Below, piece by piece: positions 4,200 to 61,055 of a stretch of 64,000 bases of DNA. The stretch spans positions 1-64,000 of the forward strand of contig DATDPG010000076.1 of the NCBI GenBank assembly GCA_035292885.1, in the 5' to 3' direction. Made by a program: the position numbers and the translations under genes. Source of the stretch: Bdellovibrionota bacterium (GTDB taxonomy: Bacteria > Bdellovibrionota_G > JALEGL01 > DATDPG01). The notes under the pieces are model-generated. The model did not search any database, was not told the DNA's origin, and saw only the letters and a program-made list of their open reading frames with translations. Each line of letters starts with the position of its first letter. Position 1 is the stretch's first letter.

Positions 4200-6413
4200 T
4201 TAACCCGCGCGCTGACGGGTTCGGCGCTCGGCCTGCGTCGCTTTGCGCACTTCCTCTTCGGCCACGGCGATGAGTTTCGCTTCGCTCAGACCCGATTCCA
4301 TCTTCCCCAACCCCGCGTGATACGCGGTCGCCCGGTTTCGGCCGGCGCGTTTGGATTCGTAGAGAGCACGATCCGCCTTTTCGATTAAATCCTCCCGGCT
4401 TTCCGAATCATCGGGAAATTCCGCCAGGCCGACTGAAAGCGTCACCCGCAACGTGAGCCCCTGACGGACGAACCGCGTCTTTGCGACGGCCTCCACGATT
4501 CGCTCGGCCATCCGATAACCGCCGCTCCCGGGCGTGCCGACCAAAATCACGGCGAATTCTTCCCCTCCGTATCGGGCCACGAGGTCGATTTTGCGGACCA
4601 TTTTTCGCAGCACGCCCCCGATCTCACGCAAGACGAAGTCGCCGACCGGATGCCCGTACTCGTCATTGAACTTCTTGAAGTGATCGATGTCGGCCAGAAG
4701 AAGAGTCGTGGAGGACGGATGCCGGCCGGAGCGCTCAAGCTCCGTGGAGAGAAATTCCTGAAACGTCCGGTGATTCGCGAGGCCGGTCAAACCGTCGGTC
4801 GTGGCGCGCCGCTCCAGCTCCTGCACCATGCGTGCGTTCTTCAGCGATGAAGCCGCCTGCAGCGCCACCACCTCCAGCATCTTGCGCACGCTCTTGGAGA
4901 AAGCGTTGTTCTTGCGGCTGGCAAAAAGAATCGCCCCCAGCGGTTCTCCTTTCATTTGAAGCGGCAGCAATAGAACGGAGTCGAAAATCGGTGGAACACG
5001 AATCGACTTGGGAAAAAGCGTCGTCTTGCCCTGCCGAAGACGAAAATGGGTGTATGAAAGCGGGGTCTGATTTTTCACGACCCAAGAGACCAACCCGCGC
5101 TCGGGCGCGCAGACAAACGTCGCTCCGGTGCATCCCGCCGGAGTCTCCCCGCCTTCCGCAGTGATCCGATTTTCATCCGATTCGGCATCGTAGAGCACGA
5201 CCGCGCTCCAGTCATAGTGAACGATCTCATGTGTCGACTGAACCAGCGTCTGAACGACATCTTCGACGCGAAGACTCCGGTTAAGCGCCGTGCTCGCGGA
5301 GTAAAAATTCGACAATTCCTCTTTGAGATGGAAATACGCGTGCAACGCTTCGGCGTTTTCAATCGCGCGGTTCAGTTGCCGCCCGATTTGGATCACCGTT
5401 TCGCACTCGTCATCGGCGAAGGGCGTGGGCTCTAATCGATCCAGAACCAAGGCCCCTTTCAGTTGCCCCGAATCCTCCGTCCGGAGCGGAGCCACCAGGA
5501 CCGACTGAACCGGCGCCGGACCCTCGTAATACGTGAGCCCGCGCAACGGCTTCGACGAAGAAAAAAGGCGAATCGGAGCGTTTTCGTTCCGCAGAGCCTG
5601 AAAAATCCCCTCCGAGGCACGAACCGGCTCTTTGGAAAATCGATCCGACCGCGTGAAATGATCCTTTAAAACAAAAACCTCATCCATTTCATCGAAAAGA
5701 TAGAGGGCGCACGTGTGCGGCTCGTACGTCCGCTGGACGATTTCGAGAAGGTTTCGAAAGCTTTTCTCCCTCCCACGGATCATCTCGGCCAGATGCGCTT
5801 TTTTCCGGTCCGCCGCGCGCAGGACCGACTCCATTTCGGCCGACCTCCCTTCCAAGAGGCTCGCCTCCCGCTCATACAATTGAAGGCGGTCGAGAACTCC
5901 CTTCCGTTTTTTCCGTTCCTGAAGGCGAAAAACGGACGCCAGCGCCGTCCAGATGACGAGAAAAAGATACGTCGAAACGACGAGCGTCAGTCCGTCTTTT
6001 CCGCCGGGAGCATGAAAGAGCGAGAGCGCCCCTTGAAGAACCAGCAACGCCGCGATTTCACGCCAACGATAGCCGGCGTAAACCAACACCAGAAAGAACG
6101 GAAACGTCAGATACGGAAGCCATTCCTGCGGCCAAGTTCGCGCAGCCAAGTCAATGGCGAGGAGCGCCGCAGCGGCACCTTCCATCAAGCGCCGGCGCGC
6201 GAGCTTCCCTTCCGGCGTTCCCGCCGTCTTGGGCAGAAAGAGGTAGGAAAAGAGAGAGATCGCCGCCAATAACGGGACGCACGCGAGCGGCCACCAGGAA
6301 TCCCCGAGGCGCGGATGCAGGCTGCTCAAAAAAAGAAACGAGGCGACAACGGCGAATCGAAAACGATAGAGCGGGCGAGTTACGACGTTAGCCCAAAGTA
6401 CCGCCCGCATCAT
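4200..6413 (-). CDS. Membrane GAF-GAF-GGDEF diguanylate cyclase
   Basis: 737 aa. The N-terminal 170 residues contain about five hydrophobic segments, then a charged helix (about 175-225), then two GAF-like regions (about 225-360 and 365-525). A C-terminal GGDEF domain carries the active-site GGEEF at 616-620. An RKID inhibitory (I) site lies five residues before it (607-610), so product feedback by c-di-GMP is expected. The enzyme should make c-di-GMP from two GTP at the inner membrane, gated by an unknown ligand. Its ATG overlaps the ftsB stop codon as ATGA, so synthesis is coupled to a cell-division gene. Confidence 0.93.
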   Translation of the reverse strand: MMRAVLWANVVTRPLYRFRFAVVASFLFLSSLHPRLGDSWWPLACVPLLAAISLFSYLFLPKTAGTPEGKLARRRLMEGAAAALLAIDLAARTWPQEWLPYLTFPFFLVLVYAGYRWREIAALLVLQGALSLFHAPGGKDGLTLVVSTYLFLVIWTALASVFRLQERKKRKGVLDRLQLYEREASLLEGRSAEMESVLRAADRKKAHLAEMIRGREKSFRNLLEIVQRTYEPHTCALYLFDEMDEVFVLKDHFTRSDRFSKEPVRASEGIFQALRNENAPIRLFSSSKPLRGLTYYEGPAPVQSVLVAPLRTEDSGQLKGALVLDRLEPTPFADDECETVIQIGRQLNRAIENAEALHAYFHLKEELSNFYSASTALNRSLRVEDVVQTLVQSTHEIVHYDWSAVVLYDAESDENRITAEGGETPAGCTGATFVCAPERGLVSWVVKNQTPLSYTHFRLRQGKTTLFPKSIRVPPIFDSVLLLPLQMKGEPLGAILFASRKNNAFSKSVRKMLEVVALQAASSLKNARMVQELERRATTDGLTGLANHRTFQEFLSTELERSGRHPSSTTLLLADIDHFKKFNDEYGHPVGDFVLREIGGVLRKMVRKIDLVARYGGEEFAVILVGTPGSGGYRMAERIVEAVAKTRFVRQGLTLRVTLSVGLAEFPDDSESREDLIEKADRALYESKRAGRNRATAYHAGLGKMESGLSEAKLIAVAEEEVRKATQAERRTRQRAG

Positions 6414-6745
6414 CGGAAGATATATTGAATTTCATTCTCCCCAGCAAGCTGCAGTTCTTGCCGGGCCTCGCGTTCAATCGTTCGCAAATCATTCCGATAG
6501 AGTTCAATCTTTTTGGCGAGCCGGCCGATGTCCCGGTTGAATTGACCGATCTCTCGGTCAATCTGCTTTCCTCGGGTCCAAAGCTGATAGCTGGTCCAGA
6601 GTCCCCGATCTCCGACGATCGAAAAGAAAATGAGCGCGGAAATATAGGCCAGAAACGTCGTCCAAAGTAACGACCTGCGGCGGGAAAAACGAATCTCAAG
6701 TTTCCGAAGGAGGATCCGGCTCCATTTCCCCGCCATGTTCGCCAT
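6410..6745 (-). CDS. ftsB: FtsB/DivIC-family septum formation initiator
   Basis: 111 aa. A basic N-terminus precedes one membrane span (about 27-46, LLWTTFLAYISALIFFSIVG). A coiled coil follows (about 58-95) and ends in the EREARQELQLAGENEI segment typical of FtsB/DivIC. These bitopic proteins join FtsL and FtsQ at the septum. The gene overlaps the diguanylate cyclase by 4 nt. A TAGGAT box lies 6 nt before the ATG at 6745 with no Shine-Dalgarno, so the mRNA is probably leaderless. The dcw-cluster enolase or IspD context seen in many genomes is absent here. Confidence 0.82.
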   Translation of the reverse strand: MANMAGKWSRILLRKLEIRFSRRRSLLWTTFLAYISALIFFSIVGDRGLWTSYQLWTRGKQIDREIGQFNRDIGRLAKKIELYRNDLRTIEREARQELQLAGENEIQYIFR

Positions 6746-6751
6746 GAAACG

Positions 6752-6780
6752 ATCCTAGCGGAGCACGCGAAGTTTGAAAA
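6752..6780 (-). promoter_or_regulatory. Leaderless promoter of ftsB-diguanylate cyclase
   Basis: On the minus strand TTTTCA (6780-6775), a 17-nt spacer and TAGGAT (6757-6752) are followed by 6 nt and the ATG. The predicted transcription start coincides with the start codon. The -35 box overlaps that of the divergent patatin promoter on the plus strand, so RNA polymerase binding at the two may compete. Confidence 0.5.
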
Positions 6781-6801
6781 GCCGCACCCTCCGCGTATGA
6801 T
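6774..6801 (+). promoter_or_regulatory. Promoter of patatin gene
   Basis: TTGAAA (6774-6779), a 16-nt spacer and TATGAT (6796-6801) match the sigma-70 consensus well. They predict a start near 6808 and a leader of about 20 nt before the ATG at 6828. The -35 hexamer overlaps the divergent ftsB -35 box. Confidence 0.5.
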
Positions 6802-6827
6802 CTCGATATCTTTCGGGTTTCCTCGCG

Positions 6828-8078
6828 ATGCCACCCAAACGAAAAGTTCGAACCGCACTCGTTTTGTCCGGCGGCGGAACCCGGGGCGCCTATGAAGTCG
6901 GCGTAGTCCACTATCTAAGAACAAAGCTCCCCTCACGGCTCGCGGAAGGGTTGCAATTCGACATTCATTGCGGCTCGAGCGTCGGCGCCATTAACGCCGC
7001 TTTTATGGCTTCCATGGCCCACGACCCGGTCGCGCAGGGACAAACCCTGCTGAATCTCTGGAGCGACCTTCGCACAGAAAATATTTACCGCCGTGGACCG
7101 TTGACCTTGGGAAAATTACTGTTGCGAACTCTGGTGGGAGTCGTATCCCACGTGGCGGGTCTTAAGGGTCTGGCTCGTCCGGACGATCGGTCGCTGCATT
7201 TCCGGGGCTTTTTCGACACGGCTCCCTTTTTTCAGTTTCTGCGCGAACATTGTCACTGGGCCAATATCAGCAAGAATATCGATCACGGCGTGATCGAGGC
7301 TCTCGCTATTTCCGCCACCAATATGCTCACCGGCCAGTTGGAGATCTTCATCCACAAACGGCTGGAACTGGGTCACAGCGAACGGCTGAATTGCCACATC
7401 GGACGGATCAGCCCCCGGCATGTCATGGCCTCCGCTGCCTTGCCCCTTATCTTCCCGCCCGTCCCAATCCACGGCGTTTATTACAACGACGGGGCGATGC
7501 GCCTGAACACCCCCCTCGCACCCGCAGTTTCGCTGGGCGCAGCGAGAATCCTGATCATCGGAACCCGATATCATCCCACCGTCGAGGATCTCGACACGCA
7601 GATTCGAATGACGGTCTCGCGCCAGCCCACTCTGGGCGATGTCCTGGGAAAGCTTTTTCACGCGATTCTTGTGGATCGTCTCGATTCCGACCAGGAACAG
7701 GTGGACCGCATTAATCGAATTCTCACGGCCTGTGCCACGCACCTCGATCCGGACGCGTATCACGCGATTTGCACCCAGGCCGGCGTTCAACGGATCGAAA
7801 CGCTTTCGATCGAACCCACGGCGAACATCGCCAACCTCGTCGATGAAACCGCCCGCGGTTCGCTTCAAAACCTTCGAACCATGGGAATTTTGGAGCGGTT
7901 CGTTCTGCGAGTCCTGGAAACCGATCCGGGCCAGGGGAGCGACTTCCTCAGTTACTTTCTTTTTGAACCGAGTTACCTGAAAAAGCTCATTGATCTCGGC
8001 TACGAAGACGCGAGACGTCACCACGACGCCCTGGCCGCGTTCGCGGAACGAGCCATTGAACATAAGCCGGTTGAATAA
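6828..8078 (+). CDS. Patatin-like phospholipase
   Basis: 416 aa. The N-terminus carries the oxyanion-hole loop SGGGTRGAYEVG and then the nucleophile elbow GSSVG with catalytic Ser51. The DGA motif of the Ser-Asp dyad is at YNDGAMR (Asp221). These residues define a patatin-fold lipid acyl hydrolase. Family members cleave fatty acids from phospholipids or neutral lipids, or act as toxins. No signal peptide or outer-membrane barrel is visible, so it is probably cytoplasmic or peripheral. The roughly 190 residues after the DGA motif are helical and family-specific. The following methyltransferase gene starts within about 50 nt and may be cotranscribed. Confidence 0.93.
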   Translation: MPPKRKVRTALVLSGGGTRGAYEVGVVHYLRTKLPSRLAEGLQFDIHCGSSVGAINAAFMASMAHDPVAQGQTLLNLWSDLRTENIYRRGPLTLGKLLLRTLVGVVSHVAGLKGLARPDDRSLHFRGFFDTAPFFQFLREHCHWANISKNIDHGVIEALAISATNMLTGQLEIFIHKRLELGHSERLNCHIGRISPRHVMASAALPLIFPPVPIHGVYYNDGAMRLNTPLAPAVSLGAARILIIGTRYHPTVEDLDTQIRMTVSRQPTLGDVLGKLFHAILVDRLDSDQEQVDRINRILTACATHLDPDAYHAICTQAGVQRIETLSIEPTANIANLVDETARGSLQNLRTMGILERFVLRVLETDPGQGSDFLSYFLFEPSYLKKLIDLGYEDARRHHDALAAFAERAIEHKPVE

Positions 8079-8124
8079 CACATGCATTCGAATTCCGCCG
8101 AAACAGCTTGAAACCAATACCCCC

Positions 8125-8865
8125 GTGGCGTCCTGGTATTCAGATCCTGATTTTTGGGCGTTCACCCGGCCGTTCATGTTCGATGCGGACCGGTGGAAGG
8201 CCGCACCTATGGAGATCATCGATCTGATCCGATTGACGCGTGTTCAATCCGGCGCCCGTGTGCTGGATCTCTGTTGCGGCCCGGGAAGGCATGCAATACC
8301 CCTCGCTCAACACGGTTTCACCGTCACGGGAGTCGATCTGAGTGCGGAACTTCTCAAACAGGCCGAACAAAAAGCTAAGACAGAAGGGGCAAAAATTGAA
8401 TGGATTGAAAAGGACATGCGGGAATTTGTTCGTCCGGAGGCCTTCGATCTCGCGTTGAGTCTGTTCACCTCTTTCGGTTATTTCGAAGAGTCGGCTGACG
8501 ATGTAAAGACGTTGAAGAACGTTTGCCGTTCCCTAAAAACGGGCGGAATGTTCGTGATTGATCTCATGGGAAAAGAGGTCTTAGCCCGCATCTTTGAAGC
8601 ACGTCGTTGGCGAGAAAGCCAAGGCGCGATCTTCTTGGAAGAAGCGAAAATTTCCGACGACTGGGGAAAAGTGGATGTCCTTGCCGTCGTGATTGAAAAA
8701 GAGCGGCGCCACGAAACGCCGATGTCCATCCGTCTCTATTCAGGACAGGAACTCCGGGCGCTCCTGACGGAATGTGGATTCAAACAGATCGTCCTTTTCG
8801 GGGATTTCCAGGGAAATCCTTATGACCATCGGGCCCGACGTCTGGTGGCTTTGGCTCGAAAGTAA
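8125..8865 (+). CDS. Class I SAM-dependent methyltransferase
   Basis: 246 aa from GTG 8125. Motif I is VLDLCCGPGRHA, followed by the acidic strand VTGVDLSAELL and a motif II-like FDLALSLFTSFGYF, so it is a Rossmann methyltransferase binding S-adenosylmethionine. The opening WYSDPDFWAFTRPFMF matches the start of a common uncharacterised subgroup, which is why GTG 8125 is preferred. The frame is open further upstream, and ATG 8176 is an alternative. The substrate is unknown. The gene ends 10 nt before the convergent acetoacetyl-CoA synthetase with no terminator between them. Confidence 0.82.
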   Translation: MASWYSDPDFWAFTRPFMFDADRWKAAPMEIIDLIRLTRVQSGARVLDLCCGPGRHAIPLAQHGFTVTGVDLSAELLKQAEQKAKTEGAKIEWIEKDMREFVRPEAFDLALSLFTSFGYFEESADDVKTLKNVCRSLKTGGMFVIDLMGKEVLARIFEARRWRESQGAIFLEEAKISDDWGKVDVLAVVIEKERRHETPMSIRLYSGQELRALLTECGFKQIVLFGDFQGNPYDHRARRLVALARK

Positions 8866-8874
8866 TCTCCAAGC

Positions 8875-10827
8875 CTAAGATAGAAGTTCCTTAAGGTTTC
8901 TGAACTGATCCAATGACGTTGGGTTTGCGAGGGCGTCCCGATTTTTGATCTCCTCACCTTTGATCGTTTTGAGAACCGCCATCTCGACCTTTTTCCCGCT
9001 GATCGTGTACGGAATTTCCCGTATGGAAAGAATCTTCGCCGGAACATGCCTCGGCGTCGTCTCTTCGCGGATCCTTGTCTTGATTTTCTTTTGGAGTTGC
9101 TCCGTAAGCTTCGCACCGCGTTTTAGCACGATAAAAAGCACGATTCTTTCGTCCCCTTCCCACGGCTGACCGATCACGAGGCTGTCGGAGATTTCGGGCA
9201 TCGTTTCGACCTGTCGGTAGATTTCGGCCGTTCCGATTCGCACACCCGACGGATTGAGCGTCGCATCGGAGCGCCCGTAGATCACCGCCCCTCCCCTCTC
9301 GTTGAAAAGAATGTAATCTCCGTGCCTCCAAATTCCGGGATATTCGCTGAAATAGGCCTTCCGATATTTCTCGCCGCCGGGATCGTTCCAGAAATAGATC
9401 GGCATGGAGGGCGCCGGCTTCCGACAAACCAGTTCCCCCTGCCGGCCGATCAGCTCTTTGCCGTCATCGGAGTAAGCCGCGACATCCATTCCAAGCCCTT
9501 TGCATTGAATCTCGCCTCGATAGACAGGGAGGATCGGATTTCCCAGGACGAAGCAGGAGACGATGTCGGTCCCGCCCGAGATCGACGAGAGCAGGACGTC
9601 TGGCTTCACATGTTCGTACACCCAATCGAAATCCTCGGGAAGAAGAGGAGAACCGGTCGACGTAATCGTTTTCAGACGACTCAGATCGAACTTATCCTTG
9701 GGTGAAAGGTTCGCGTTGCGACAGGCACCCAGGAATTTTGCGCTCGTTCCGAAGATCGTCAGCCTTTCATTGGCGGCCAATTCCCAGAGTCGATTCAGTG
9801 AAGGATACGACGGCGATCCGTCATACAAAACCAGCTTGCATCCCGTCAGCAAACCGGAAATCTGCCAATTCCACATCATCCAGCCGCACGTCGTGAAATA
9901 TGTGAACGTATCGTCCGGCCCGACGTTTGTATGGAGCATCAATTCCTTGCCGTGCTGAAGGAGCGTCCCTCCCGCTCCGTGAACAATACACTTCGGAACA
10001 CCCGTGGTTCCCGAAGAGTAGAGAATGTAGACCGGGTGATCGAACGGAAGCGCCCGAAATTCGAGGCCCATTGGGGCCTCGAATTTCGCGGCATCGTTCC
10101 ATGAAACCGCTCCTGGAATCTCGACCACGGACTCTGGGTTCATCTGCGGAATGAGAACCACCGTTTGAATCGAAGGAACCCGTTTCTGGACTTCGCGAAT
10201 CCGGTCGAGAATTGAAAATGGCTTTCCATTGTATTGGTAGCCGTCCACGGCGATCAAGATCTTCGGTTCGATCTGGCCGAACCGGTCGAAAATCCCCTGC
10301 ACGCCGAAATCGGGTGAACAGGAGGACCAGATCGCTCCGATACTCGTCGCTGCGAGCATTCCAATGACCGGTTCCGGAGAATGCGACGTAATCGCGGCGA
10401 CCCGGTCTCCGGATACGATACCTTCGGACTTCAGAAACGCAGCGACGGACGCTACTTGTCGGTAAAGCTCGCCGTACGTGATTTCCCGTCGCGCGCCAGC
10501 TTCGTTGATCGCTGTGATCGCGATTTTCTCGGAGTTCCCGCCTTCGGAACACCGCAACAGGTTCTCGGCGAAATTGAGCCGCGCCCCTTCGAACCAACGG
10601 GCTCCCGGCATTTTGGAGCCGGCTAGAACTTTCTTGTAAGGCGTGTGAGATACGACATCCGTGAATTTCCAGATCGATTCCCAAAATGGGCCGATTTGAT
10701 CCACCGACCATCTATGGAGCGAAAGATAATCTTGGAAAGAAGGATACCCGTTTTTGGGAAGCCAATGGATGTAACGAGCCATTTGGCTTTTCTGCAGGTC
10801 ATCAGCCCTTGGCTTCCGAAGAATCAT
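8875..10827 (-). CDS. Acetoacetyl-CoA synthetase
   Basis: 650 aa, the expected length. The adenylate-forming signature YILYSSGTTGVPK sits near residue 268, with later family motifs TSTGSPL, SGGTDIV, WRHGDY and a GRSDATLNPSGVRIG block. The C-terminal PYTISGKKVEM contains the catalytic Lys. The N-terminal region with RWFEGARLNFAENLL marks the acetoacetate branch rather than acetyl-CoA synthetase. It activates acetoacetate with ATP and CoA. With the neighbouring thiolase, hydroxyacyl-CoA dehydrogenase and crotonase this suggests use of ketone bodies, C4 acids or polyhydroxybutyrate products. A TAAGGT hexamer lies 9 nt before the ATG. Confidence 0.94.
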   Translation of the reverse strand: MILRKPRADDLQKSQMARYIHWLPKNGYPSFQDYLSLHRWSVDQIGPFWESIWKFTDVVSHTPYKKVLAGSKMPGARWFEGARLNFAENLLRCSEGGNSEKIAITAINEAGARREITYGELYRQVASVAAFLKSEGIVSGDRVAAITSHSPEPVIGMLAATSIGAIWSSCSPDFGVQGIFDRFGQIEPKILIAVDGYQYNGKPFSILDRIREVQKRVPSIQTVVLIPQMNPESVVEIPGAVSWNDAAKFEAPMGLEFRALPFDHPVYILYSSGTTGVPKCIVHGAGGTLLQHGKELMLHTNVGPDDTFTYFTTCGWMMWNWQISGLLTGCKLVLYDGSPSYPSLNRLWELAANERLTIFGTSAKFLGACRNANLSPKDKFDLSRLKTITSTGSPLLPEDFDWVYEHVKPDVLLSSISGGTDIVSCFVLGNPILPVYRGEIQCKGLGMDVAAYSDDGKELIGRQGELVCRKPAPSMPIYFWNDPGGEKYRKAYFSEYPGIWRHGDYILFNERGGAVIYGRSDATLNPSGVRIGTAEIYRQVETMPEISDSLVIGQPWEGDERIVLFIVLKRGAKLTEQLQKKIKTRIREETTPRHVPAKILSIREIPYTISGKKVEMAVLKTIKGEEIKNRDALANPTSLDQFRNLKELLS

Positions 10828-10857
10828 GGTTTCGGTACCTTAGAGGGCCTAATACCC

Positions 10858-10863
10858 TAGAAT
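10858..10863 (+). promoter_or_regulatory. Candidate -10 box, leaderless lipoprotein gene
   Basis: TAGAAT lies 8 nt before the ATG at 10872, and there is no purine-rich ribosome site. No good -35 hexamer is visible. This fits the TAnnnT pattern seen before other first genes in the window. Confidence 0.35.
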
Positions 10864-10871
10864 TGATCCCT

Positions 10872-11234
10872 ATGAAAATCGCAATTATTACAATTGTGTT
10901 TTGTTTGACCGCTTGCCAACAGGTTTCGCAGGATGACTCTAAGGAGGCAGCGCAATCTTCTCCCCCGACGGAGTCCCTGGCCCCAACAGGAAAAGGGCCT
11001 CCGCCCGCCTGGAATGCTTCAAGTGCCCTTCAACGATTTGGAAAACATATGGAGAATATGTCTCCCGAGGATTATGTCGACAATGGTGCGAGACATGGCG
11101 GAAAACTCACTATTTCAGATTGGCTCACCCGAAGCACGTGTTGCATTGATCGATTTCGAAAAAAAGAGACGGAACAAATAGCAAAAGCAGAGGGGATTAC
11201 GCTTCCACAAATCTTTCGAGTGCCAGCCGGATAA
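10872..11234 (+). CDS. Small predicted lipoprotein, function unknown
   Basis: 120 aa. The signal sequence MKIAIITIVFCLTACQQ ends in a lipobox (LTAC) with Cys15 as the lipidation site. A Pro/Ser-rich linker follows, then about 80 residues with no family recognised; they contain the pair CC near residue 91. The start ATG 10872 lies 8 nt after a TAGAAT box. The last 38 nt overlap the 3' end of the convergent BrnA-like antitoxin. Its only same-strand neighbour is far away, so context gives no role. Export as an envelope lipoprotein is the only supported prediction. Confidence 0.62.
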   Translation: MKIAIITIVFCLTACQQVSQDDSKEAAQSSPPTESLAPTGKGPPPAWNASSALQRFGKHMENMSPEDYVDNGARHGGKLTISDWLTRSTCCIDRFRKKETEQIAKAEGITLPQIFRVPAG

Positions 11235-11433
11235 ACTTTTGATAGTCGAGCCCGGCGGCATGGGCTCTTTTCTTGAGAGCATGAAGCAGCCGTTCACTGA
11301 GACGAATCGTGATCGTTTTATTCTTCGCCTCAAGTTCGAAACGCACAGCCTTCCACTTTCCCGTCTTAAGCAGATCGGACATGTCCCGATCCAAAGGATC
11401 TTCGTTCCTATTTCGTTTTTTGGAGATTCTCAT
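11197..11433 (-). CDS. BrnA-like CopG/RHH antitoxin
   Basis: 78 aa. The C-terminal half (TITIRLSERLLHALKK, then AHAAGLDYQKFIRLALERF) is a ribbon-helix-helix DNA-binding domain. The N-terminal part (charged, ending in KWKAVRFELE) is the toxin-binding arm seen in BrnA/CopG antitoxins. The gene starts 26 nt inside the 3' end of the BrnT-type toxin, the normal brnT-brnA order. The protein should bind BrnT and repress the shared promoter, where a GTAAAT...ATTTAC palindrome overlaps the -35 box. It appears intact although its toxin partner is frameshifted. Confidence 0.82.
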   Translation of the reverse strand: MRISKKRNRNEDPLDRDMSDLLKTGKWKAVRFELEAKNKTITIRLSERLLHALKKRAHAAGLDYQKFIRLALERFVEA

Positions 11434-11706
11434 AAGCTCTTGCCTCTCTTTTGTGTGCGTATCGCGCAGAAATGACTCGAATCAAGGATTCTTTCCCTTT
11501 CGTTCTGAACGTGAAAGCCACAAACATATATCGACCGTTTCCCGCTCGTCCCACAGCCACATACCGATGTTCCCTCTCGGAATGCTCAGAATCTTCCGCA
11601 ACCAGCACTTCCCGCGCAAAGAATTCCTCAATCTCGCCAATTGCAAGCCCGTGCTTCCCGGCCTTTCGGTGTTTCCCGAATCCCAGTCGAAGCCGTGGAA
11701 TTTCAC
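11408..11706 (-). pseudogene. BrnT-family RNase toxin with a one-base frameshift
   Basis: From GTG 11706 the frame reads VKFHGFDWDSGNTE, the proper BrnT amino terminus. The rest of the toxin (KAGKHGLAIGEIEEFFARE through LIRVISARYAHKREARAYE) lies in a different frame down to the stop at 11408. One extra A in the GAAAGG run (TTT at 11664-11666 on the plus strand) would join the two into a 99-residue protein. BrnT is a ribonuclease toxin of type II modules, and the RVISAR and late acidic/Tyr motifs are present. The frame lesion predicts an inactive toxin unless it is a sequencing error or is bypassed. A reading frame running back to ATG 11734 exists but gives a non-family N-terminus. Confidence 0.8.
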
Positions 11707-11712
11707 TTTTTG

Positions 11713-11756
11713 AGCCTAACACGAGGTAGTGCATTATGTAAATACAAATGATTTAC
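11713..11756 (-). promoter_or_regulatory. Promoter and palindromic operator of brnT-brnA
   Basis: On the minus strand TTTACA (11742-11737, five of six matches), an 18-nt spacer and TAGGCT (11718-11713) lead into GTG 11706 after 6 nt, so the transcript should be leaderless. A perfect inverted repeat GTAAAT-7-ATTTAC (11738-11756) covers the -35 box, a suitable site for autorepression by the ribbon-helix-helix antitoxin. The bases from about 11760 to the exbD stop at 11884 contain a second TTACAAT (11764-11770) and nothing else recognised. Confidence 0.55.
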
Positions 11757-11883
11757 AATAGACTTACAATTGCTTAGGAATTCAAACAAACCGAGACACG
11801 AAACTACCGCGAATGCCGGCTAGACCAGAAGCGCGTACGCCACAAGGTGGTGTAGCCAAGCTTCAAAGGCGTATCAGATTCAA

Positions 11884-12929: not shown

Positions 12930-12934
12930 GAGAA

Positions 12935-14589: not shown

Positions 14590-14600
14590 GGATTGCTCCT

Positions 14601-15002: not shown

Positions 15003-15052
15003 CGAGCGGTCTTTATAGCCGCATGCCGGGGAATTTCAACTACTTAGCCTGC

Positions 15053-15301: not shown

Positions 15302-15317
15302 AGATTGCTCGCCGGCG

Positions 15318-20968: not shown

Positions 20969-20996
20969 ACATTACCAGAATGCGTTACCTGAGCAA
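20969..20996 (-). promoter_or_regulatory. Leaderless promoter of the thiolase/mutase operon
   Basis: On the minus strand TTGCTC (20996-20991), a 16-nt spacer and TAATGT (20974-20969) are followed by 7 nt and GTG 20961. The predicted start of transcription falls on the start codon. Confidence 0.45.
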
Positions 20997-21685: not shown

Positions 21686-21714
21686 ATGGTAGAAGATATG
21701 CTTTTTTATGTCAA
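21686..21714 (-). promoter_or_regulatory. Leaderless promoter of vapBC
   Basis: On the minus strand a perfect TTGACA (21714-21709), a 17-nt spacer and TACCAT (21691-21686) are followed by 7 nt and ATG 21678. No ribosome site is present. Confidence 0.6.
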
Positions 21715-28033: not shown

Positions 28034-28062
28034 AGTATACCGAAGAGAATGCGATTTGACTA
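28034..28062 (-). promoter_or_regulatory. Leaderless promoter of the HTH-MNT/HEPN operon
   Basis: On the minus strand TAGTCA (28062-28057), a 17-nt spacer and TATACT (28039-28034) are followed by 6 nt and ATG 28027. The upstream AT-rich bases (28062-28093) may act as an UP element or HTH operator. The rest of the 28028-28148 gap shows nothing recognised. Confidence 0.6.
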
Positions 28063-32953: not shown

Positions 32954-33785
32954 CCTCCGCTTTTACCAAAATCACGTCTCCGGTGATATCGAGATCGGGC
33001 GACTTGGAACCGATCGTGTTGATCTCGCGGTTCATTTCCTGGAGCAGGAAGTCGATTTCCCGCCCGACGCTCCCTTTCGAACCCAAAAGCTCCTCCAGTC
33101 TTTTCAAGTGGCTCTTCAAGCGGACGACCTCTTCCGTGACATCGTCTTTTTCCACCAGCAAAGCCAGCTCGACGTTCACGCGGTCCCAGGCAATCTCTTT
33201 GCCGTTTAAGAGCTCCGTCGCACGCGTTCGCATCCGATCGATTCGTATTCGACCCGCCTCCCCTATTTGATGCGAAACCCTTTCCACCGCCCGTTCGATG
33301 GTCTGCCTCCGGCGGCCGATATCCGCCACCAGCGCTTTCCCCTCTCGCCACCGGAATTCGCGCAGTTTTTCCAGCGCTCCCCTGGCCGCTTTCTGAAAAA
33401 GCCGGGATGCATCCGATCCAAAGGGAGACCGGTCATCGCGCGAGGATGCGAGGGCGACCGCTGTTTCGAGCAAAACGGGTGTCGGAATTCCAAGTTTCTT
33501 TCGAAGCCGCTCCAGCTCCCGCCAGCGCCCGATGACCACCGGCTCCGAAAACCCGTTGTTCTTTCGCGCGGCGAGCGGCTCGGCTTTCAAAACTAGATCG
33601 ATTTTCCCGCGGGAAAATTCCTTTCTCACGAGCCCCGCCAGGTCGTGCTCGAGTTCCAGAAGCTCTTTGGGGGCCTGGATTCGAACGTCACAGAATCGAT
33701 TGTTCACCGAACGCGCCTCCACGACGTAGCGATATTCTTTCCCTTTCGCCACGCCGCGGCCGAATCCGGTCATGCTGGACGCCAT
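32916..33785 (-). CDS. yicC: YicC-family endoribonuclease
   Basis: 289 aa, full length. It begins SSMTGFGRG (the typical MTGFGR opening) and holds the family's RSVNNRFCDVRIQAPKEL block, plus the C-terminal GSKGSVGREIDFLLQEMNRE with the conserved EINTIGSK segment. YicC/YloC proteins are stress-related RNases that cut RNA, in E. coli affecting the small RNA RyhB. It heads the yicC-gmk-rpoZ run with a leaderless promoter: TAGGAT lies 6 nt before ATG 33785. A 120-bp palindromic region lies directly upstream. Confidence 0.93.
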   Translation of the reverse strand: MASSMTGFGRGVAKGKEYRYVVEARSVNNRFCDVRIQAPKELLELEHDLAGLVRKEFSRGKIDLVLKAEPLAARKNNGFSEPVVIGRWRELERLRKKLGIPTPVLLETAVALASSRDDRSPFGSDASRLFQKAARGALEKLREFRWREGKALVADIGRRRQTIERAVERVSHQIGEAGRIRIDRMRTRATELLNGKEIAWDRVNVELALLVEKDDVTEEVVRLKSHLKRLEELLGSKGSVGREIDFLLQEMNREINTIGSKSPDLDITGDVILVKAEVEKIREQAQNLE

Positions 33786-33791: not shown

Positions 33792-33820
33792 ATCCTATCC
33801 CGGATTATTCGCGAAGGAAA
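33792..33820 (-). promoter_or_regulatory. Leaderless promoter of yicC-gmk-rpoZ
   Basis: On the minus strand a weak TTTCCT (33820-33815), a 17-nt spacer and TAGGAT (33797-33792) are followed by 6 nt and ATG 33785. The -35 box touches the left arm of the 33817-33936 inverted repeat. Confidence 0.4.
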
Positions 33821-34540: not shown

Positions 34541-34576
34541 GCGCGTCACCTTAACGCGATTCTCGGGGGAAATATA

Positions 34577-34644
34577 GGGACACACAACTGGACCCGAATT
34601 ATTTGGGAAAGAATGGAATGAATTCGGGTCCGGTCGTGTGTCCC
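34577..34644. repeat. 24-bp near-perfect inverted repeat (MITE/REP-like)
   Basis: The left arm is at 34577-34600 and the right arm at 34621-34644, with a 20-nt loop. Reverse-complemented, the arms differ at only 2 of 24 positions; the arms run GGGACACAC...GGACCCGAATT. It lies between the divergent Trm112-like and hexapeptide genes, and only one copy was seen here. GGGACACA termini recall REP/MITE-type elements mobilised by Y1 transposases, but that link is an inference. Confidence 0.7.
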
Positions 34645-34678
34645 CCGAATATGAACTGTATGTTATTGATTTCACCGG

Positions 34679-34684
34679 TACTAT
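34679..34684 (+). promoter_or_regulatory. Candidate -10 box, leaderless hexapeptide gene
   Basis: TACTAT lies 7 nt before GTG 34692 and there is no ribosome site. The -35 region is poor. This supports GTG 34692 rather than GTG 34638, which lies inside the inverted repeat. Confidence 0.4.
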
Positions 34685-39825: not shown

Positions 39826-39853
39826 TTCACGTCGAACCGATTCAAGCTACACT
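39826..39853 (+). promoter_or_regulatory. Leaderless promoter of the 39.9-kb glycosyltransferase operon
   Basis: TTCACG (39826-39831), a 16-nt spacer and TACACT (39848-39853) are followed by 7 nt and ATG 39861. The same -35 hexamer TTCACG occurs before the methyltransferase at 61.1 kb. Confidence 0.45.
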
Positions 39854-44168: not shown

Positions 44169-44174
44169 TATACT
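44169..44174 (+). promoter_or_regulatory. Candidate -10 box, leaderless Gfo/Idh/MocA gene
   Basis: TATACT lies 7 nt before GTG 44182; the preceding TT makes it close to an extended -10. The -35 match is weak. It would give an internal promoter within the polysaccharide locus. Confidence 0.45.
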
Positions 44175-49884: not shown

Positions 49885-49913
49885 TTGAGCTTTCGAATCA
49901 TTGGCACTATTCT
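49885..49913 (+). promoter_or_regulatory. Leaderless promoter of the CDP-sugar operon
   Basis: TTGAGC (49885-49890), a 17-nt spacer and TATTCT (49908-49913) are followed by 8 nt and ATG 49922, with no ribosome site. Confidence 0.5.
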
Positions 49914-54449: not shown

Positions 54450-55200
54450 CACGGATCGTCGCACAATTACTCGCGAGGCAGGCGGGGAAAGCCGAACGGT
54501 TCCGCTTTATTCCCAAGAAGCTCTTGAGTGGCTTTCACAACAATGGTTGCGCGTCGGGTGGGATCAAAAGTACACGTATACGTTCAGTTGGTTCGGCCGG
54601 CCGATCATCCAACTCCCCGAAGATATTGTCCGAACACAAGAAGTCATCTTCCAGCTGCGTCCGGATCTTATTATTGAGACGGGCGTGGCCCACGGAGGAT
54701 CTCTTGTGCTTTACGCAAGCCTCCTTAAAGCCATCGGGAACGGCCATGTCGTCGGGATTGACATAGAAATTCGTCCCCATAATCGCAAGGCTATCGAAAA
54801 ACACGAATTGGCCTCGATGATCACCCTTTTGGAAGGAAGTTCGACGGACAAAACCATTGTCCAGCAAGCCAAGGACCTTGCCAAGGGTGCCCGTACCGTC
54901 CTCGTGTTCCTCGACTCAAATCATTCAAAGAAACACGTATTGGAAGAGCTCGAAGCCTACAGCCCGTTCGTATCGCTCGGTTCTTACATCGTGGCGACCG
55001 ACGGAATCATGAAGGACCTTACGGACGTACCCCGCGGGAACTCTTCTTGGATAAGCGACAATCCGTACGAGGCGGCCGCCGAATTCGTCAAGGAGCACCC
55101 TGCCTTTCGAATCGAGCGGCCGAAGCCCCCCTTCTCGGAAAGCAACCTCGATATCGAAGTTACGCATTGGCCGGGGGCGTGGATTAAGAGAGTCTCCTGA
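54433..55200 (+). CDS. CmcI-family methyltransferase (cephalosporin hydroxylase family)
   Basis: 255 aa. The signature block IIETGVAHGGSLVLYASLL, then VVGIDIEIRPHNRKAIE and LVFLDSNHSKKHVLEEL, is that of the CmcI/RhmM group of SAM O-methyltransferases, which use metal held by Asp and His. Members methylate sugar hydroxyls in surface glycans. It overlaps the sugar reductase by 17 nt, so O-methylation of the deoxysugar is a reasonable guess. The annotation name 'cephalosporin hydroxylase' is historical and misleading. Confidence 0.88.
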   Translation: MRLVIDTDRRTITREAGGESRTVPLYSQEALEWLSQQWLRVGWDQKYTYTFSWFGRPIIQLPEDIVRTQEVIFQLRPDLIIETGVAHGGSLVLYASLLKAIGNGHVVGIDIEIRPHNRKAIEKHELASMITLLEGSSTDKTIVQQAKDLAKGARTVLVFLDSNHSKKHVLEELEAYSPFVSLGSYIVATDGIMKDLTDVPRGNSSWISDNPYEAAAEFVKEHPAFRIERPKPPFSESNLDIEVTHWPGAWIKRVS

Positions 55201-55238
55201 AAGAACGATTAAAAACATTCTTTCAACGTTTTCCGCTT

Positions 55239-56405
55239 TTGGTCAGCTTCGTCCGTTGGCTTCGAAAGGCGGAATTCGAATGTTACACCGCCTTGGCCCG
55301 CGTTCTCTTCCACTTTGTGAACCGTCGCGAGCTTTTTGAAGGTAGAAAATATGACGTCCGGTTCTTTGGCGATGCAGAAACCATCTCCGGTACGCACGCC
55401 ACATGGAAAAAGATTGGACTCGAACGCCCGTTTTATTGGGAACGTCTTTTTCAAAAGCCGCTCACTCTCCATCGCCCCTTTTTCGTCGTTCTGCCTCGCG
55501 GCGAATTGGTCGGGAAAAAGGCGGTTGCCCTGGATCCATCGGGAAACATCCTTCTTGAATCCACCGTTTTTCAGATGGAGTATTTTCGAAAAACCTACGA
55601 CGCTCGTTTCATTCTTCGACGGCGGCGAATCGAAGCGATTGAATTCCCCTTTCCGGCGATCAGCCTAGTCTCTTGGCACGAACGCTCTTACGGCCATTGG
55701 ACAGGCGAAGCTCTGGCGCGCTTTCTCGCCTATCCGGAGGTCGAAAAGGCGTTCGGCCGGGATGTCCGGGTCGTTATTAGTGGAACGCCTTACCCATTCC
55801 AGCGTGACACGTTGACCGAGCTCTTTGGAATTCGGCCCGAGCAGTTTCTGCCGTGGGCCTATACGCGGGCGGTTTTTAAGAAGCTCATCGTGCCCGGATA
55901 CCGGCATCGGAGAGACGCCGAAACGATGAACAGCGACGTCAACTCCCTTGAAGCCTACCGCGAGCTCCACAGGCGATCAAAAGCGATCCCGGTCACCGGT
56001 ACTTTTCCGAAAAACTTCATCATTAATCGGCAGCCGATCCATGGCCGCAGCATTTTGAACATTGATCACTTGCATGACGCCCTTTCAGACCTCGACTTCA
56101 CCGTCCTCGATACGGAAGGGATGCCGTTTCGAGATGAGGTGGGCTTATTTCGAAACGCGGAGAAAGTCGTTTTGGTTCACGGATCCGCATTTCCAAATCT
56201 TATCTATTCGGACCACGCCCGAGTGATCGATCTTTTGCCCGGTGGATTCGAATGGGATCAAAGCCAATTGTTCTTCTACCAGATCTCCCGCGCGCTCGGT
56301 CTAATACATCACGTGGTTCCCATCGGTCCGATCAAAACCCGGGATAATGTTAGGTTAACTTCCGAAGAAATTGGAAGAATCCGAAAGGCATGCGCTGAAA
56401 TTTGA
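55239..56405 (+). CDS. Glycosyltransferase family 61-like protein
   Basis: 388 aa from GTG 55239; the frame is open back to the previous stop, and CTG 55197 overlapping it is another possible start. GT61-type motifs: ISLVSWHERSYGHWTGEALARF near the middle and KVVLVHGSAFPNLIYSD at the C-terminus, parallel to the usual HW-x-E and GAGL-TN motifs. These enzymes add sugars such as xylose or GlcNAc. It is the last gene of the CDP-sugar run and meets a convergent membrane-protein gene at 56406. Confidence 0.72.
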   Translation: MVSFVRWLRKAEFECYTALARVLFHFVNRRELFEGRKYDVRFFGDAETISGTHATWKKIGLERPFYWERLFQKPLTLHRPFFVVLPRGELVGKKAVALDPSGNILLESTVFQMEYFRKTYDARFILRRRRIEAIEFPFPAISLVSWHERSYGHWTGEALARFLAYPEVEKAFGRDVRVVISGTPYPFQRDTLTELFGIRPEQFLPWAYTRAVFKKLIVPGYRHRRDAETMNSDVNSLEAYRELHRRSKAIPVTGTFPKNFIINRQPIHGRSILNIDHLHDALSDLDFTVLDTEGMPFRDEVGLFRNAEKVVLVHGSAFPNLIYSDHARVIDLLPGGFEWDQSQLFFYQISRALGLIHHVVPIGPIKTRDNVRLTSEEIGRIRKACAEI

Positions 56406-58319
56406 TTAGGGACCCACTGAACCACTAGAGCGTATTTGCTCGTCAAGAATACCCAACTTCAAAAACTCATGTGGCTCGTAGAGTTGGCCGTCATACATCA
56501 CACGATCCATCGGTCGTAGCCTGAAATAATGATCGTACGTTTCGAGATTGGGCCGTTTGTCTCCATAGAGCGGCAACAGACGATAAATATAAAGAAGGTA
56601 CTCGCGAGTCTCCTTTGTTCCTTTTGTCGCAAAATACTTAAACGGAGAGATCGGTTCGATATCCATCCCCGCGGCGAGATATCCAAGCTTGTTTCCTGGA
56701 ACGTAAATGAGGGGCTGAAACCACTTCACGTCGTACGTCTCGACCTCCCTTTGGGTTAAAACGTATCCTATTCGAATCCTGCGCCCTTCCCGGGCGAGAT
56801 CCGTTACGATTCGAGCCGTCTCCGGCTCGATCGAGTGCCGCGCGGCATAGACGTGCCCTAAACTTTGACTCCAGTCGACATCGAATCCCCACATCGAATG
56901 AGTCGAAGTTATGACGGCGATAAAGCATGTTCCGATCACGGTCGCCGCCATCGAACGTTTCGAGTTCAAGGTTAGGCGTGAAATCATCGGTATAAGCGCA
57001 TACCAACAGGCCACGTATCCGATGTACGGAAATTGATAGGTATTTTCGTTCGTCGGTACGGCCTGAAAAACCGCAATCCCCGCGGCGGTCAGAAAAAGTG
57101 ACATCCATAGAGCAGGGCCAAATGTTTCGTGTTCAACACTATTTTTGCGTTCGAACCACTTCACGAGGACCCAGGCCAGGCCAACGAAAAGCGTGACCCG
57201 AGCCATGAGGGAAAAACTGATCCAAAGAATCGGCTTGGAAAGTCGAAGCCACCCCAGGACGATGGAGCTTAATGAAGGCATAGCATCCAGGTTCGTAACT
57301 TTCGCTTGGGTGACTTTATAAAAAAGTGCAATGTACGCGGCGTTCAATATTGTGGCCGCCAGAATTTTTATCATGAAATGATCACGGTCTTTTCCTCGAA
57401 CGACACGGTACGCGGCGTACAAAAAGATCCCTGTGAATACGGCGGGGGCCGTCGTGATCGACACAACCGGAAGGTAGAGCAGACACAAAAGAGCAGACCG
57501 AACGTCGTTGACGCCCAATCGCCCGAAAACGGGCACCAAGAAAAGAACGTACGTTAAAAAATTAGGTCGTATCCATACGTCCGCGTAGATCGGCCAAAAG
57601 TCGCTTCCAATATTAAGGGCGTGCCACGTTTGCGTCAGCGAAAGAAAAAACGCAACGCTTCCGGCGGCCGCCCATTGTCCAATTGTCTTTGGTCGCACGA
57701 GAATGACGATTCCGAGAAGACCTAGGGCTTGCAGCCAAGCATAGACGCCGTGAATCAATACGACGGACTCCGGCATCCGGAGACCTTGGTAGAGGATATT
57801 CCCCAGCCAAAATTCGAAATAATGGTACGGAGAGGTTCCAACAAATTCCGGCACAATCTCGTTGAAAAAGTGAAACCAATTCTCAACTCCGTAGACGGAA
57901 AGATCGTGGATCCGTTTGGCGTAGATCAGGACATCATTTTCAATTGTTTCGGGATAGACGTGAAAAAGACGGACAAGGCTCACGAGCAGCATTGTAACCA
58001 TCATCCATAGGAGGAAGCGGCCACCGTCCTGCCAGTGCGGACGCTGAAAAGTCGGCTTTGCATTCGGCGAGAGAAGCCAAACGGAAGCCGCGCTGACAAA
58101 AAAAGCCGTGTGAATGGTGACTCCCTTCGTCACCCACATCGCCCAGACTGTTGTTAGGCCTATGAGCCCGGAAAGAATAACCAGAAACGTCTGTTCGTAT
58201 TTATTTTCGGAACCCCAAGGGAAAATGAACGGCTGCAGAAAACGCCCAAGAAGGAGACTGACCGCGCTTATGAATGTTGCCAAAACCGACAGCCATAAAA
58301 TCTCAAAAACAAATGGCAT
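56406..58319 (-). CDS. Large polytopic membrane protein, function unknown
   Basis: 637 aa with about twelve membrane spans between residues 1 and 480, then a soluble periplasmic-like C-terminal 140 residues. The loop after span 3 or 4 (EIVPEFVGTSPYHYFEFWLG) holds acidic and aromatic residues as in GT-C or Wzy-like enzymes. No family is recognised with confidence. Its place in the polysaccharide locus suggests a flippase, polymerase or GT-C role. It is monocistronic and convergent with the GT61-like gene; its start lacks both a ribosome site and the TAnnnT box. Confidence 0.72.
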   Translation of the reverse strand: MPFVFEILWLSVLATFISAVSLLLGRFLQPFIFPWGSENKYEQTFLVILSGLIGLTTVWAMWVTKGVTIHTAFFVSAASVWLLSPNAKPTFQRPHWQDGGRFLLWMMVTMLLVSLVRLFHVYPETIENDVLIYAKRIHDLSVYGVENWFHFFNEIVPEFVGTSPYHYFEFWLGNILYQGLRMPESVVLIHGVYAWLQALGLLGIVILVRPKTIGQWAAAGSVAFFLSLTQTWHALNIGSDFWPIYADVWIRPNFLTYVLFLVPVFGRLGVNDVRSALLCLLYLPVVSITTAPAVFTGIFLYAAYRVVRGKDRDHFMIKILAATILNAAYIALFYKVTQAKVTNLDAMPSLSSIVLGWLRLSKPILWISFSLMARVTLFVGLAWVLVKWFERKNSVEHETFGPALWMSLFLTAAGIAVFQAVPTNENTYQFPYIGYVACWYALIPMISRLTLNSKRSMAATVIGTCFIAVITSTHSMWGFDVDWSQSLGHVYAARHSIEPETARIVTDLAREGRRIRIGYVLTQREVETYDVKWFQPLIYVPGNKLGYLAAGMDIEPISPFKYFATKGTKETREYLLYIYRLLPLYGDKRPNLETYDHYFRLRPMDRVMYDGQLYEPHEFLKLGILDEQIRSSGSVGP

Positions 58320-58354
58320 AAGAATTCGAATGCGCTCTCATACCCTTATCGTTT

Positions 58355-58382
58355 TTGTTAGACGCTAGCCAATTATTAGGAT
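58355..58382 (+). promoter_or_regulatory. Promoter of the 58.5-kb methyltransferase
   Basis: TTGTTA (58355-58360), a 16-nt spacer and TAGGAT (58377-58382) predict a start near 58389. The gene then has a leader of about 65 nt with GGAGG just before ATG 58456, unlike the leaderless genes. Confidence 0.4.
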
Positions 58383-58455
58383 TCAGTCCGTAGTCCTGGC
58401 CTCCACAAATCGGAAAATACGAGGGCAAGGAATTCGGACGCTCACCGCGGAGGGT

Positions 58456-59136
58456 ATGCTTCCGGACTGCGAGATCTATCTTTCCGGGACATTTTATTCC
58501 TTAGCTGAAATCGGCCGAGGCAAAACGGTTTTGGATATCGGTTGCGGCCACGGATTTAATAAAGAGGTGATCGAAGCAGCCGGAGGGCGTTGGATCGGAA
58601 TCGATCCGTTTCGTGGCGGAGGCCAATCCGCCATCGCCGACGCAATGTTCTTGCCTATAATGGAGAGGTCCATCGACGTTGTGGTCGCGGATTCGGTATT
58701 GGAGCATATTCCCAATCTTTCTCGCGCATTCGCGGAGATCGCTCGTGTCTTGAAACCTGGAGGAAAGTTCGTTGGATACGCGGCTTTTCTGGAACCGTAT
58801 CATGAAATATCGTATTGCCACGTTTCCTATTCGGCGCTGGAATATTTTGCCCTGGAAAGCGGAATGAAATTGCGGAAACTTTTCGGCGGGGGCCGATACG
58901 GTATCGGCGTGCAGATCGCCTCCTTGATCTGGCCGCTCCGCATTCCATTTCTACAAACTCTGGTAAGTGCCTTAATCAATACGCTCCTCCGTTTTAAGTT
59001 GGTTTTTGGATTTTTCTATTTGATTCTGAGGCGCAGACAAGAGCTCTCCGACGCTTGGAAAAAAGCGAAACAGTATTATGTATCTCAAAAGCTGGGTTAC
59101 TCTCAGGGGTTCAGTTTTCTGATTGATAAGCGGTGA
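58456..59136 (+). CDS. Class I SAM-dependent methyltransferase
   Basis: 226 aa. Motif I is VLDIGCGHGFNKEV, the ribose-binding acid is in WIGIDPFRGGG, and VVVADSVLEHIPN is a typical motif II. The C-terminal 60 residues hold a hydrophobic helix pair (IPFLQTLVSALINTLL and FGFFYLIL), so it may be membrane-associated and act on a lipid-linked sugar. GGAGG precedes the ATG. It lies alone between a divergent membrane protein and a convergent asnB. Confidence 0.85.
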   Translation: MLPDCEIYLSGTFYSLAEIGRGKTVLDIGCGHGFNKEVIEAAGGRWIGIDPFRGGGQSAIADAMFLPIMERSIDVVVADSVLEHIPNLSRAFAEIARVLKPGGKFVGYAAFLEPYHEISYCHVSYSALEYFALESGMKLRKLFGGGRYGIGVQIASLIWPLRIPFLQTLVSALINTLLRFKLVFGFFYLILRRRQELSDAWKKAKQYYVSQKLGYSQGFSFLIDKR

Positions 59137-59142
59137 GTGCGG

Positions 59143-61020
59143 TTAGCTTCCCACGTGGGCCAACCAAGACTCCAGAACGAAGAGAGACCAGACCGGTTCC
59201 CATCGCCCCTTCGACGAAATGAAATCCTTCTTCAATTCCTCAACGCGGTCCCACCGAAACAACCCGCGGCTTTCGATCCGTTGTTTTGAAAGCGCGTGAT
59301 CCACGCGATCCCAAAGCCGCCCCCGCAGCCATGACTCAATCGGCACCGTAAATCCTCGCTTCGGGCCGAGGACTCCTTTGGGCAAAAGCCTCTTTGCGAT
59401 TTCTCGCAATATTCTCTTATTGATTCCCCGGTCGTACTTATAGGGGTCCGGCAAGGAAAGAATGAACTCTACCCATCGATGATCGAGATAGGGGACGCGC
59501 ACTTCAAGACTGTTAGCCATACTCAATGCGTCAATGTCCCGTAATAAAGGTGCCTGAAGATAGACATTGAGTCCGTGAGATATAAGTCTCCTCTCAAGGG
59601 TCGCTCCCGCCATTTTTCGTTCCATCCATTCCCACGCCGGTTCGCATCCGGTAAACCCGGCTGGTTGTTGAAGTTGTTTCTTATCGGCTTCGGAGAAAAT
59701 CGAAAAACCGACCCTTTCGAGCCGTTGGCCCAAAGAAAGTGAAAGTAACGCCGCAACATCACGGGGGGAGCGCTTGCCCGTGCCGAAAAGCACCGACAGA
59801 AGAAGGGTTCTTTGAATTGTAAGCGGAAGCCAGGAAGTGAACGTTTCAAATTGCTGCAACAATAAGAGCGGTCGAACATAAGAGTAACTGAGAAACAGTT
59901 CATCCCCTCCCAGCCCGGACATGGCCACCTTTACATGTTTGGCCGCCGCTTCCGAGACAAGAAATGTATTCCAGCCGTCAAAGGAAGGTTGGTCCAGCGA
60001 AGAGATATACCGGTCGAACGTATCCACCGCTTTCGCCGGAGAGATCACAACCTCTTCGTGTTGAGTTCCTAAGCGGTTTGCAACTGCTCTTGCAATGGCA
60101 CGTTCGTCCTCAGGAGAATCGGGACGACGTTCCCATCCCACGGTGAGCGTGCGGACATCTCCCTGATGAACTCGCTTCATCAAGGCGGCCAGGAGCGACG
60201 AATCGATTCCACCGCTCAGAAATACGGCGATGGGTGTGTCGGCCAGGAGATGCGAGGCTACCGTTTTCTCGAGTAAGACCTCCGCCTTTTCAACGGCTTT
60301 CTCAAACGTTAAGTCGGCTCGCGGCTCGGCAAGAATGAGGTCGTTGGCCGACCAATATCTCTTTGACTGGCTTGAGCGTACTTCGGAAGACGATGGATCA
60401 ATTTCGTAAGTTCGAATCTCCGCGGGCTCCAATCCTCGTACGTCTTTGTAGAACGTATGCGGGGCAGGCGCGCCCTGTAAGGTCAAATAGAAGTGAATGG
60501 CGCACGGATCGAGTGACGGTGAAAAGGTCGGCAAGCGACGAAATGCCCGCAGCTCCGAAGCGAAGAACACTTGCCGATCTCGTTCCCACACGTAGAGCGG
60601 TTTGATTCCAAGGCGATCGCGGGCCAGGATGAGCCGAGATTGCTCCGTATCCCATAGGACGATGGCGAACATTCCTTGAAGATGCTCGACAAAGCGATCT
60701 CCCCATTCTTCATACGCGTGAACGATGGCCTCCGTATCGCTTCTACTTCGAAAGGAATGACCGTACCGAATCAACTCGTCCCGCAATTGAGGAGAGTTAT
60801 AGATCTCTCCATTCTGAGCCACCCAGATGGTTCCCGTTTCATTACAAAGAGGCTGGCGACCTCCGCCGATATCCACAATCGCCAGACGGGCCGTTCCGAA
60901 GGCCACGCGGCGATCCTCATAGAAATGCTGATCGTCGGGGCCTCGATGGAGCATGGAGTCGATCATCGCACGAACGTTCTCGGCACTGGGGCGTCCGATC
61001 GAACCGGCAATTCCGCACAT
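59143..61020 (-). CDS. asnB: Asparagine synthase (glutamine-hydrolysing)-like amidotransferase
   Basis: 625 aa. Cys2 of MCGIAGSIGRP is the glutaminase nucleophile after Met removal. The PPi-loop synthetase motif is AVFLSGGIDSSLLAALM, and SGLGGDELFLSYSYV follows. Both domains are complete. In surface-polysaccharide loci AsnB homologues amidate uronic-acid carboxyls, which fits this location better than amino-acid supply; which one applies is not known. It is leaderless: TAAACT lies 6 nt before the ATG. Confidence 0.95.
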   Translation of the reverse strand: MCGIAGSIGRPSAENVRAMIDSMLHRGPDDQHFYEDRRVAFGTARLAIVDIGGGRQPLCNETGTIWVAQNGEIYNSPQLRDELIRYGHSFRSRSDTEAIVHAYEEWGDRFVEHLQGMFAIVLWDTEQSRLILARDRLGIKPLYVWERDRQVFFASELRAFRRLPTFSPSLDPCAIHFYLTLQGAPAPHTFYKDVRGLEPAEIRTYEIDPSSSEVRSSQSKRYWSANDLILAEPRADLTFEKAVEKAEVLLEKTVASHLLADTPIAVFLSGGIDSSLLAALMKRVHQGDVRTLTVGWERRPDSPEDERAIARAVANRLGTQHEEVVISPAKAVDTFDRYISSLDQPSFDGWNTFLVSEAAAKHVKVAMSGLGGDELFLSYSYVRPLLLLQQFETFTSWLPLTIQRTLLLSVLFGTGKRSPRDVAALLSLSLGQRLERVGFSIFSEADKKQLQQPAGFTGCEPAWEWMERKMAGATLERRLISHGLNVYLQAPLLRDIDALSMANSLEVRVPYLDHRWVEFILSLPDPYKYDRGINKRILREIAKRLLPKGVLGPKRGFTVPIESWLRGRLWDRVDHALSKQRIESRGLFRWDRVEELKKDFISSKGRWEPVWSLFVLESWLAHVGS

Positions 61021-61026
61021 AGCGTC

Positions 61027-61055
61027 AGTTTAGCTGCCCGGGCTTTCCAGGGGAA
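61027..61055 (-). promoter_or_regulatory. Leaderless promoter of asnB
   Basis: On the minus strand a weak TTCCCC (61055-61050), a 17-nt spacer and TAAACT (61032-61027) are followed by 6 nt and ATG 61020. It lies back-to-back with the divergent methyltransferase promoter. Confidence 0.45.

Follow-up and report, generated by a model that had tools for sequence, protein, structure and literature searches.

Promoter-like TAnnnT boxes adjoining start codons point to leaderless or nearly leaderless messages in a Bdellovibrionota bacterium

Do the messages of this Bdellovibrionota bacterium begin at their own start codons? The question arises from the 64,000-nucleotide stretch of DNA analysed here (the window), in which a first-pass annotation had listed twelve first genes of transcription units with a TAnnnT box 6-8 nt ahead of ATG or GTG and no ribosome site, and had predicted widespread leaderless mRNAs. 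All twelve boxes were found at the claimed spacing (Table 1), together with two that the list had omitted, ahead of the Trm112-like gene and rimK. The chance expectation given with the list, about 3 in 64 per three-position window, was about right, the measured first-gene background being 1.23% per position. With starts assigned by coding score alone, a box at -12 to -14 was carried by 8 of the 29 first or possibly first genes of the window (binomial P ~7e-6). The accompanying details held in part. The absence of a ribosome site is not strict, because AGGA sits inside the ftsB and yicC boxes, and the Gfo/Idh gene has a same-strand gene 33 nt upstream and may be operon-internal. As for the -35 hexamers placed 16-18 nt away, those of vapB and brnT were found, the former being the only perfect TTGACA among the twelve genes; four more matched at 4/6 and six at 3/6 or less.

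Table 1. Predicted promoter elements ahead of start codons in the window (gap, nucleotides between box and start codon).
Element	Position	Strand	Gap	Gene and start codon	Remarks
-10 box TACATT	2521..2526	-	9	rimK ATG 2511	9-10 nt class
-10 box TAGGAT	6752..6757	-	6	ftsB ATG 6745	DivIC/FtsB by Pfam
-10 box TAGAAT	10858..10863	+	8	lipoprotein ATG 10872	-35 weak (2/6)
-10 box TAGGCT	11713..11718	-	6	brnT GTG 11706	-35 TTTACA (5/6), spacer 18; BrnT by Pfam
-10 box TAATGT	20969..20974	-	7	thiolase GTG 20961	Thiolase by Pfam
-10 box TACCAT	21686..21691	-	7	vapB-like ATG 21678	
-35 TTGACA (6/6)	21709..21714	-		vapB-like	spacer 17
-10 box TATACT	28034..28039	-	6	HTH-MNT ATG 28027	HTH_26 and Polbeta by Pfam
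-10 box TAGGAT	33792..33797	-	6	yicC ATG 33785	start homology-fixed
-10 box TAAGGT	34548..34553	-	7	Trm112-like ATG ~34540	Trm112p by Pfam (longer ORF)
-10 box TACTAT	34679..34684	+	7	hexapeptide protein GTG 34692	Hexapep by Pfam
-10 box TACACT	39848..39853	+	7	glycosyltransferase ATG 39861	GT4 by Pfam
-10 box TATACT	44169..44174	+	7	Gfo/Idh GTG 44182	
-10 box TATTCT	49908..49913	+	8	rfbF ATG 49922	-35 TTGAGC, spacer 17
-10 box TAAACT	61027..61032	-	6	asnB ATG 61020	catalytic Cys2 fixes the start

The genome comprises 3.10 Mb in 214 contigs (54-55% GC), of which 1.49 Mb, taken in stretches, was analysed. Genes were called with a hexamer coding model and starts were chosen by coding score and start codon, upstream sequence never being used. 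Genes that were divergent, or that began at least 80 nt past a same-strand gene, were classed as first genes (n=529) and compared with operon-internal genes (n=370), expected box counts being derived from other upstream positions. TAnnnT at -12 to -16 was found in 74 first genes against 32.6 expected (P=3.4e-10), in 54 against 19.1 among divergent genes alone (P=4.9e-11), and in 66 against 31.5 when the window was left out (P=5.6e-8), whereas operon-internal genes showed no excess at these positions (11 vs 9.5). The comparison of first with internal genes that the annotation had proposed did not refute its reading, the excess being confined to first genes. This excess reaches across the genome; its size is about 8-12% of first genes and not the roughly one-third that the window had suggested. 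Strict TAnnnT gives 8% of first genes and 12% of divergent genes, a sigma-70 matrix gives 9-11%, and these figures are lower bounds because of start-calling errors. The window is richer in boxes than the remainder (8/29 vs 39/506, P=0.002), a surplus that may stem from the way attention was drawn to it. About one-tenth of operon first genes are thus predicted to carry an ordinary promoter box directly ahead of the start codon, and their messages would probably start on that codon or no more than a few bases away.

Very probably, these boxes are -10 elements of the housekeeping sigma-70 (RpoD-type) factor, with the transcription start point on the start codon or at most about 4 nt before it. 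The resulting mRNAs would be leaderless or almost so and could hold no Shine-Dalgarno (SD) site. Two modes of initiation would coexist, in which first genes are often served by adjoining promoters and downstream operon genes by SD sites. The exact 5' ends are predicted from the box positions, and for translation the 5'-terminal RTG would presumably be recognized directly, the mechanism demonstrated in mycobacteria (PMC4633059).

SD usage follows the same division between gene classes. SD motifs occurred at a frequency of 0.39 in internal genes (control 0.10) and 0.20 in first genes, and divergent genes as a class were likewise poor in them (0.20). Boxed first genes had fewer SD motifs than unboxed ones when the box was left unmasked (5/74 vs 101/455, P=0.0015); once the box was masked, the difference was not significant (1/74 vs 4.6%, P=0.34). 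The sole 16S rRNA match in the assembly (C196:2607-3493) spans model positions 9-873 and is ended by the contig end, so that the anti-SD tail is absent from the assembly.

One alternative accepts the boxes as genuine -10 elements but places the true start codons further downstream, so that the mRNAs would have leaders and the annotated starts would be misplaced. Start prediction is indeed uncertain for many genes, several of which have an in-frame ATG or GTG a few codons on. We consider this explanation improbable, because the excess remains where the next in-frame start lies at least 45 nt away, the divergent genes are poor in SD motifs, and two of the window's starts are fixed by homology. 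Homologues of yicC share the N-terminal pattern M-x-x-S-M-T-G-F/Y-G, which fixes the start at the ATG at 33785, and the asnB product begins M-C-G-I from the ATG at 61020. In class II amidotransferases the catalytic residue is Cys2, which fixes this second start codon.

Several features of the boxes argue for promoters. In upstream regions aligned by their boxes, agreement with TTGACA was greatest at spacer 17 (mean 2.24 vs ~1.4 at other spacers), where TTG was present in 15% of cases, against mostly 0-4% outside spacers 16-18. A -35 match of at least 4/6 was found in 26 of the 74 boxed genes, compared with 14% of controls (P=2e-6). An extended -10 signal (TGn) was also apparent, with G at box position -2 in 55% of boxes. 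Both the -35 and the G features were common to boxes with gaps of 6-8 and of 9-10. Among the 46 boxed genes whose gap was 6-8, 34 had a pyrimidine at position -1, whereas 176 of the 370 internal genes did (P=9e-4). An E. coli sigma-70 matrix of textbook form, untrained on these genomes, was also applied at -12 to -16. In the bacterium's own genome it gave 79 hits against 25.1 (P=8e-18) and, in a further count, 143 against 73; the corresponding figures were 53 against 20 in a same-order relative with 37% GC (G002; P=8.5e-10) and 9 against 2.8 in Deinococcus, and E. coli showed no matrix excess. De novo motif search recovered TAnnnT from divergent genes and GGAGG from internal genes; on pooled first genes it converged on the SD motif, the -10 box emerging only for divergent genes. 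By these measures, the boxes behave as sigma-70 -10 elements.

The same features bear on the proposal that the boxes are a translational or regulatory element unconnected with promoters, either an A/T-rich initiator or the operator of a single regulator. Its precedent is that A-rich, non-SD initiation signals occur in other phyla. The -35 match at 17-nt spacing, the TGn and the pyrimidine at -1 are, however, promoter hallmarks, the boxes show no excess in internal genes, and the boxed genes are functionally unrelated, which together leave this proposal scarcely credible.

Finally, gene callers open reading frames after stops, and both TAAnnT and TAGnnT are forms of TAnnnT, so that the excess might in principle come from start choice, through TAA/TAG stops or AT-rich hexamers just 5' of the chosen starts; this artefact is rejected as hardly tenable, since the excess occurs both in frame and out of frame (-13, -14, -16), extends to the stop-free TA[CT]nnT (30 vs 11.1, P=1.9e-6) and to genes that offer a single plausible start (17 vs 7.4, P=1.8e-3), agrees with a count made without gene calls, and is absent at -6 to -11, in internal genes and, under an identical pipeline, in E. 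coli (5 vs 7.6). In that gene-call-free count, over the bacterium's whole genome, TTGA-N18..20-TANNNT-N6..10-RTG occurred 99 times against 62 with N21..25 (P=2e-3).

The reading as start-adjoining promoters leads to the question of how close the 5' ends lie to the start codons. Box positions were flat over -12 to -16 (14, 18, 14, 16 and 12 genes, for gaps of 6-10) and dropped at -11 and -17. A transcription start point usually lies 6-8 nt from the -10 box, which puts the predicted 5' ends 0-4 nt ahead of the start codon. The first-pass annotation had placed the transcription start on the start codon itself, which is one of these predicted positions, the full range of gaps extending the prediction upstream. 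The wider gaps may correspond to leaders of 1-4 nt or to a longer discriminator. In Deinococcus, the same pipeline gave a peak at -12 (17, 8, 4, 2 and 2; Fisher P=0.011, the raw counts including background), and because the spacing here is broader, the start codon may in some cases be preceded by a few transcribed nucleotides. The near-equal box frequency at 6-10 nt, with edges on both sides, suggests a loose rule in which RTG is used within the first few bases. It is possible, although we hold this idea only tentatively and think it rather doubtful, that the lineage tolerates leaders of 1-4 nt besides true leaderless mRNAs, its ribosomes starting at an RTG near the 5' end without an SD site and less strictly than those of Deinococcus or mycobacteria.

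Leaderless genes preceded by TAnnnT are already well known; what is new is the lineage that has them. A TA-like -10 signal about 10 bp before the start codon has been taken to mark leaderless genes in many phyla (Zheng et al. 2011, PMC3160421), such TA-led genes being reported in Acidobacteria, Actinobacteria, Aquificae, Chloroflexi, Deinococcus-Thermus, Proteobacteria and others. The present genome resembles these in having a -10-like signal near the start and SD-led genes alongside. It differs in lineage, which is distinct from those groups and sparsely sampled, and in that TAnnnT with a weak middle belonged there to high-GC groups (>60%), whereas it occurs here at 54-55% GC. In Deinococcus, TANNNT 6-7 bp before open reading frames acts as the -10 region of leaderless mRNA according to reporter fusions, and about 30% of open reading frames genome-wide were reported to carry the motif (PMC12340547). 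An ORF-adjoining -10 motif alongside a ribosome-binding motif is common to both. In our pipeline, Deinococcus gave 20 TAnnnT against 3.2, and the excess per first gene was 14% for Deinococcus plasmid genes compared with 8% here. The sharp 6-7 nt spacing of the Deinococcus type was not found; boxes there concentrate at gap 6, whereas here they are flat over 6-10. In mycobacteria, leaderless 5' ends have been mapped, with a TANNNT -10 element and an RTG that lies on the 5' end or close to it (Shell 2015, PMC4633059; Cortes 2013, PMC3898074); RTG at +1 exceeds the next four positions summed (1098 vs 558), and translation from a 5'-terminal RTG was demonstrated (PMC4633059). In contrast to those mapped ends, the spread seen in the sequence here suggests that many start codons lie 1-4 nt inside the message. 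The leaderless class of GeneMarkS-2 accounts for 21.6% of bacterial species (Lomsadze 2018, as cited in PMC9581028); the present genome resembles that class in mixing leaderless and SD genes, and only the lineage would be new.

The phylum was represented in our comparison by five genomes, none of them from the bacterium's own family. Identity to the closest named XseA homologues reaches 48% at most, and the XseA tree gave no supported placement for the window's XseA. The box excess is also present in the same-order relative G002, and conservation of the box was sought in yicC and asnB orthologues of order and phylum relatives and was not seen. The finding adds a sparsely sampled phylum to the lineages that mix leaderless and SD initiation, and bears on the age of the leaderless mode and on how often it has been lost. 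For the prediction of gene starts in this group, a promoter model is needed besides a ribosome-binding-site model. Should mapped 5' ends confirm the flat 6-10 nt spacing, they would test how far from the 5' terminus a start codon may lie.

Two loci in the window deserve separate mention. The brnT-like gene (11380-11706, minus strand) is frameshifted: FDWD, near the N-terminus, is encoded in the frame of the GTG at 11706, and the remaining BrnT in another. The frame from this GTG leaves the BrnT frame within a few codons, and because of this shift relative to the BrnT body the gene is either broken or mis-assembled, reflecting true decay or an assembly error in the metagenome-assembled genome. 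Additionally, a long near-perfect inverted repeat (GGGACACACAACTGGACCCGAATT ... AATTCGGGTCCGGTCGTGTGTCCC) lies at about 34577-34645, between the divergent boxed promoters of the Trm112-like and hexapeptide genes. No second copy was found in the loci analysed. Is it an operator or the remnant of a mobile element?

The gene-call-free pattern was also counted in other genomes. A same-phylum genome, G004, gave 196 against 125 (P=4e-5), and the count was weak in AT-rich genomes of the same order (G002, 350 vs 325). Several unrelated genomes gave ratios near 1 and a few exceeded 2, as expected for a trait scattered across bacteria. In two non-relatives, G033 and G029, TTGA-17-TAnnnT-(6-10)-RTG was more than twice as frequent as its shifted control, and by this count both are likely to be heavy users of leaderless genes.
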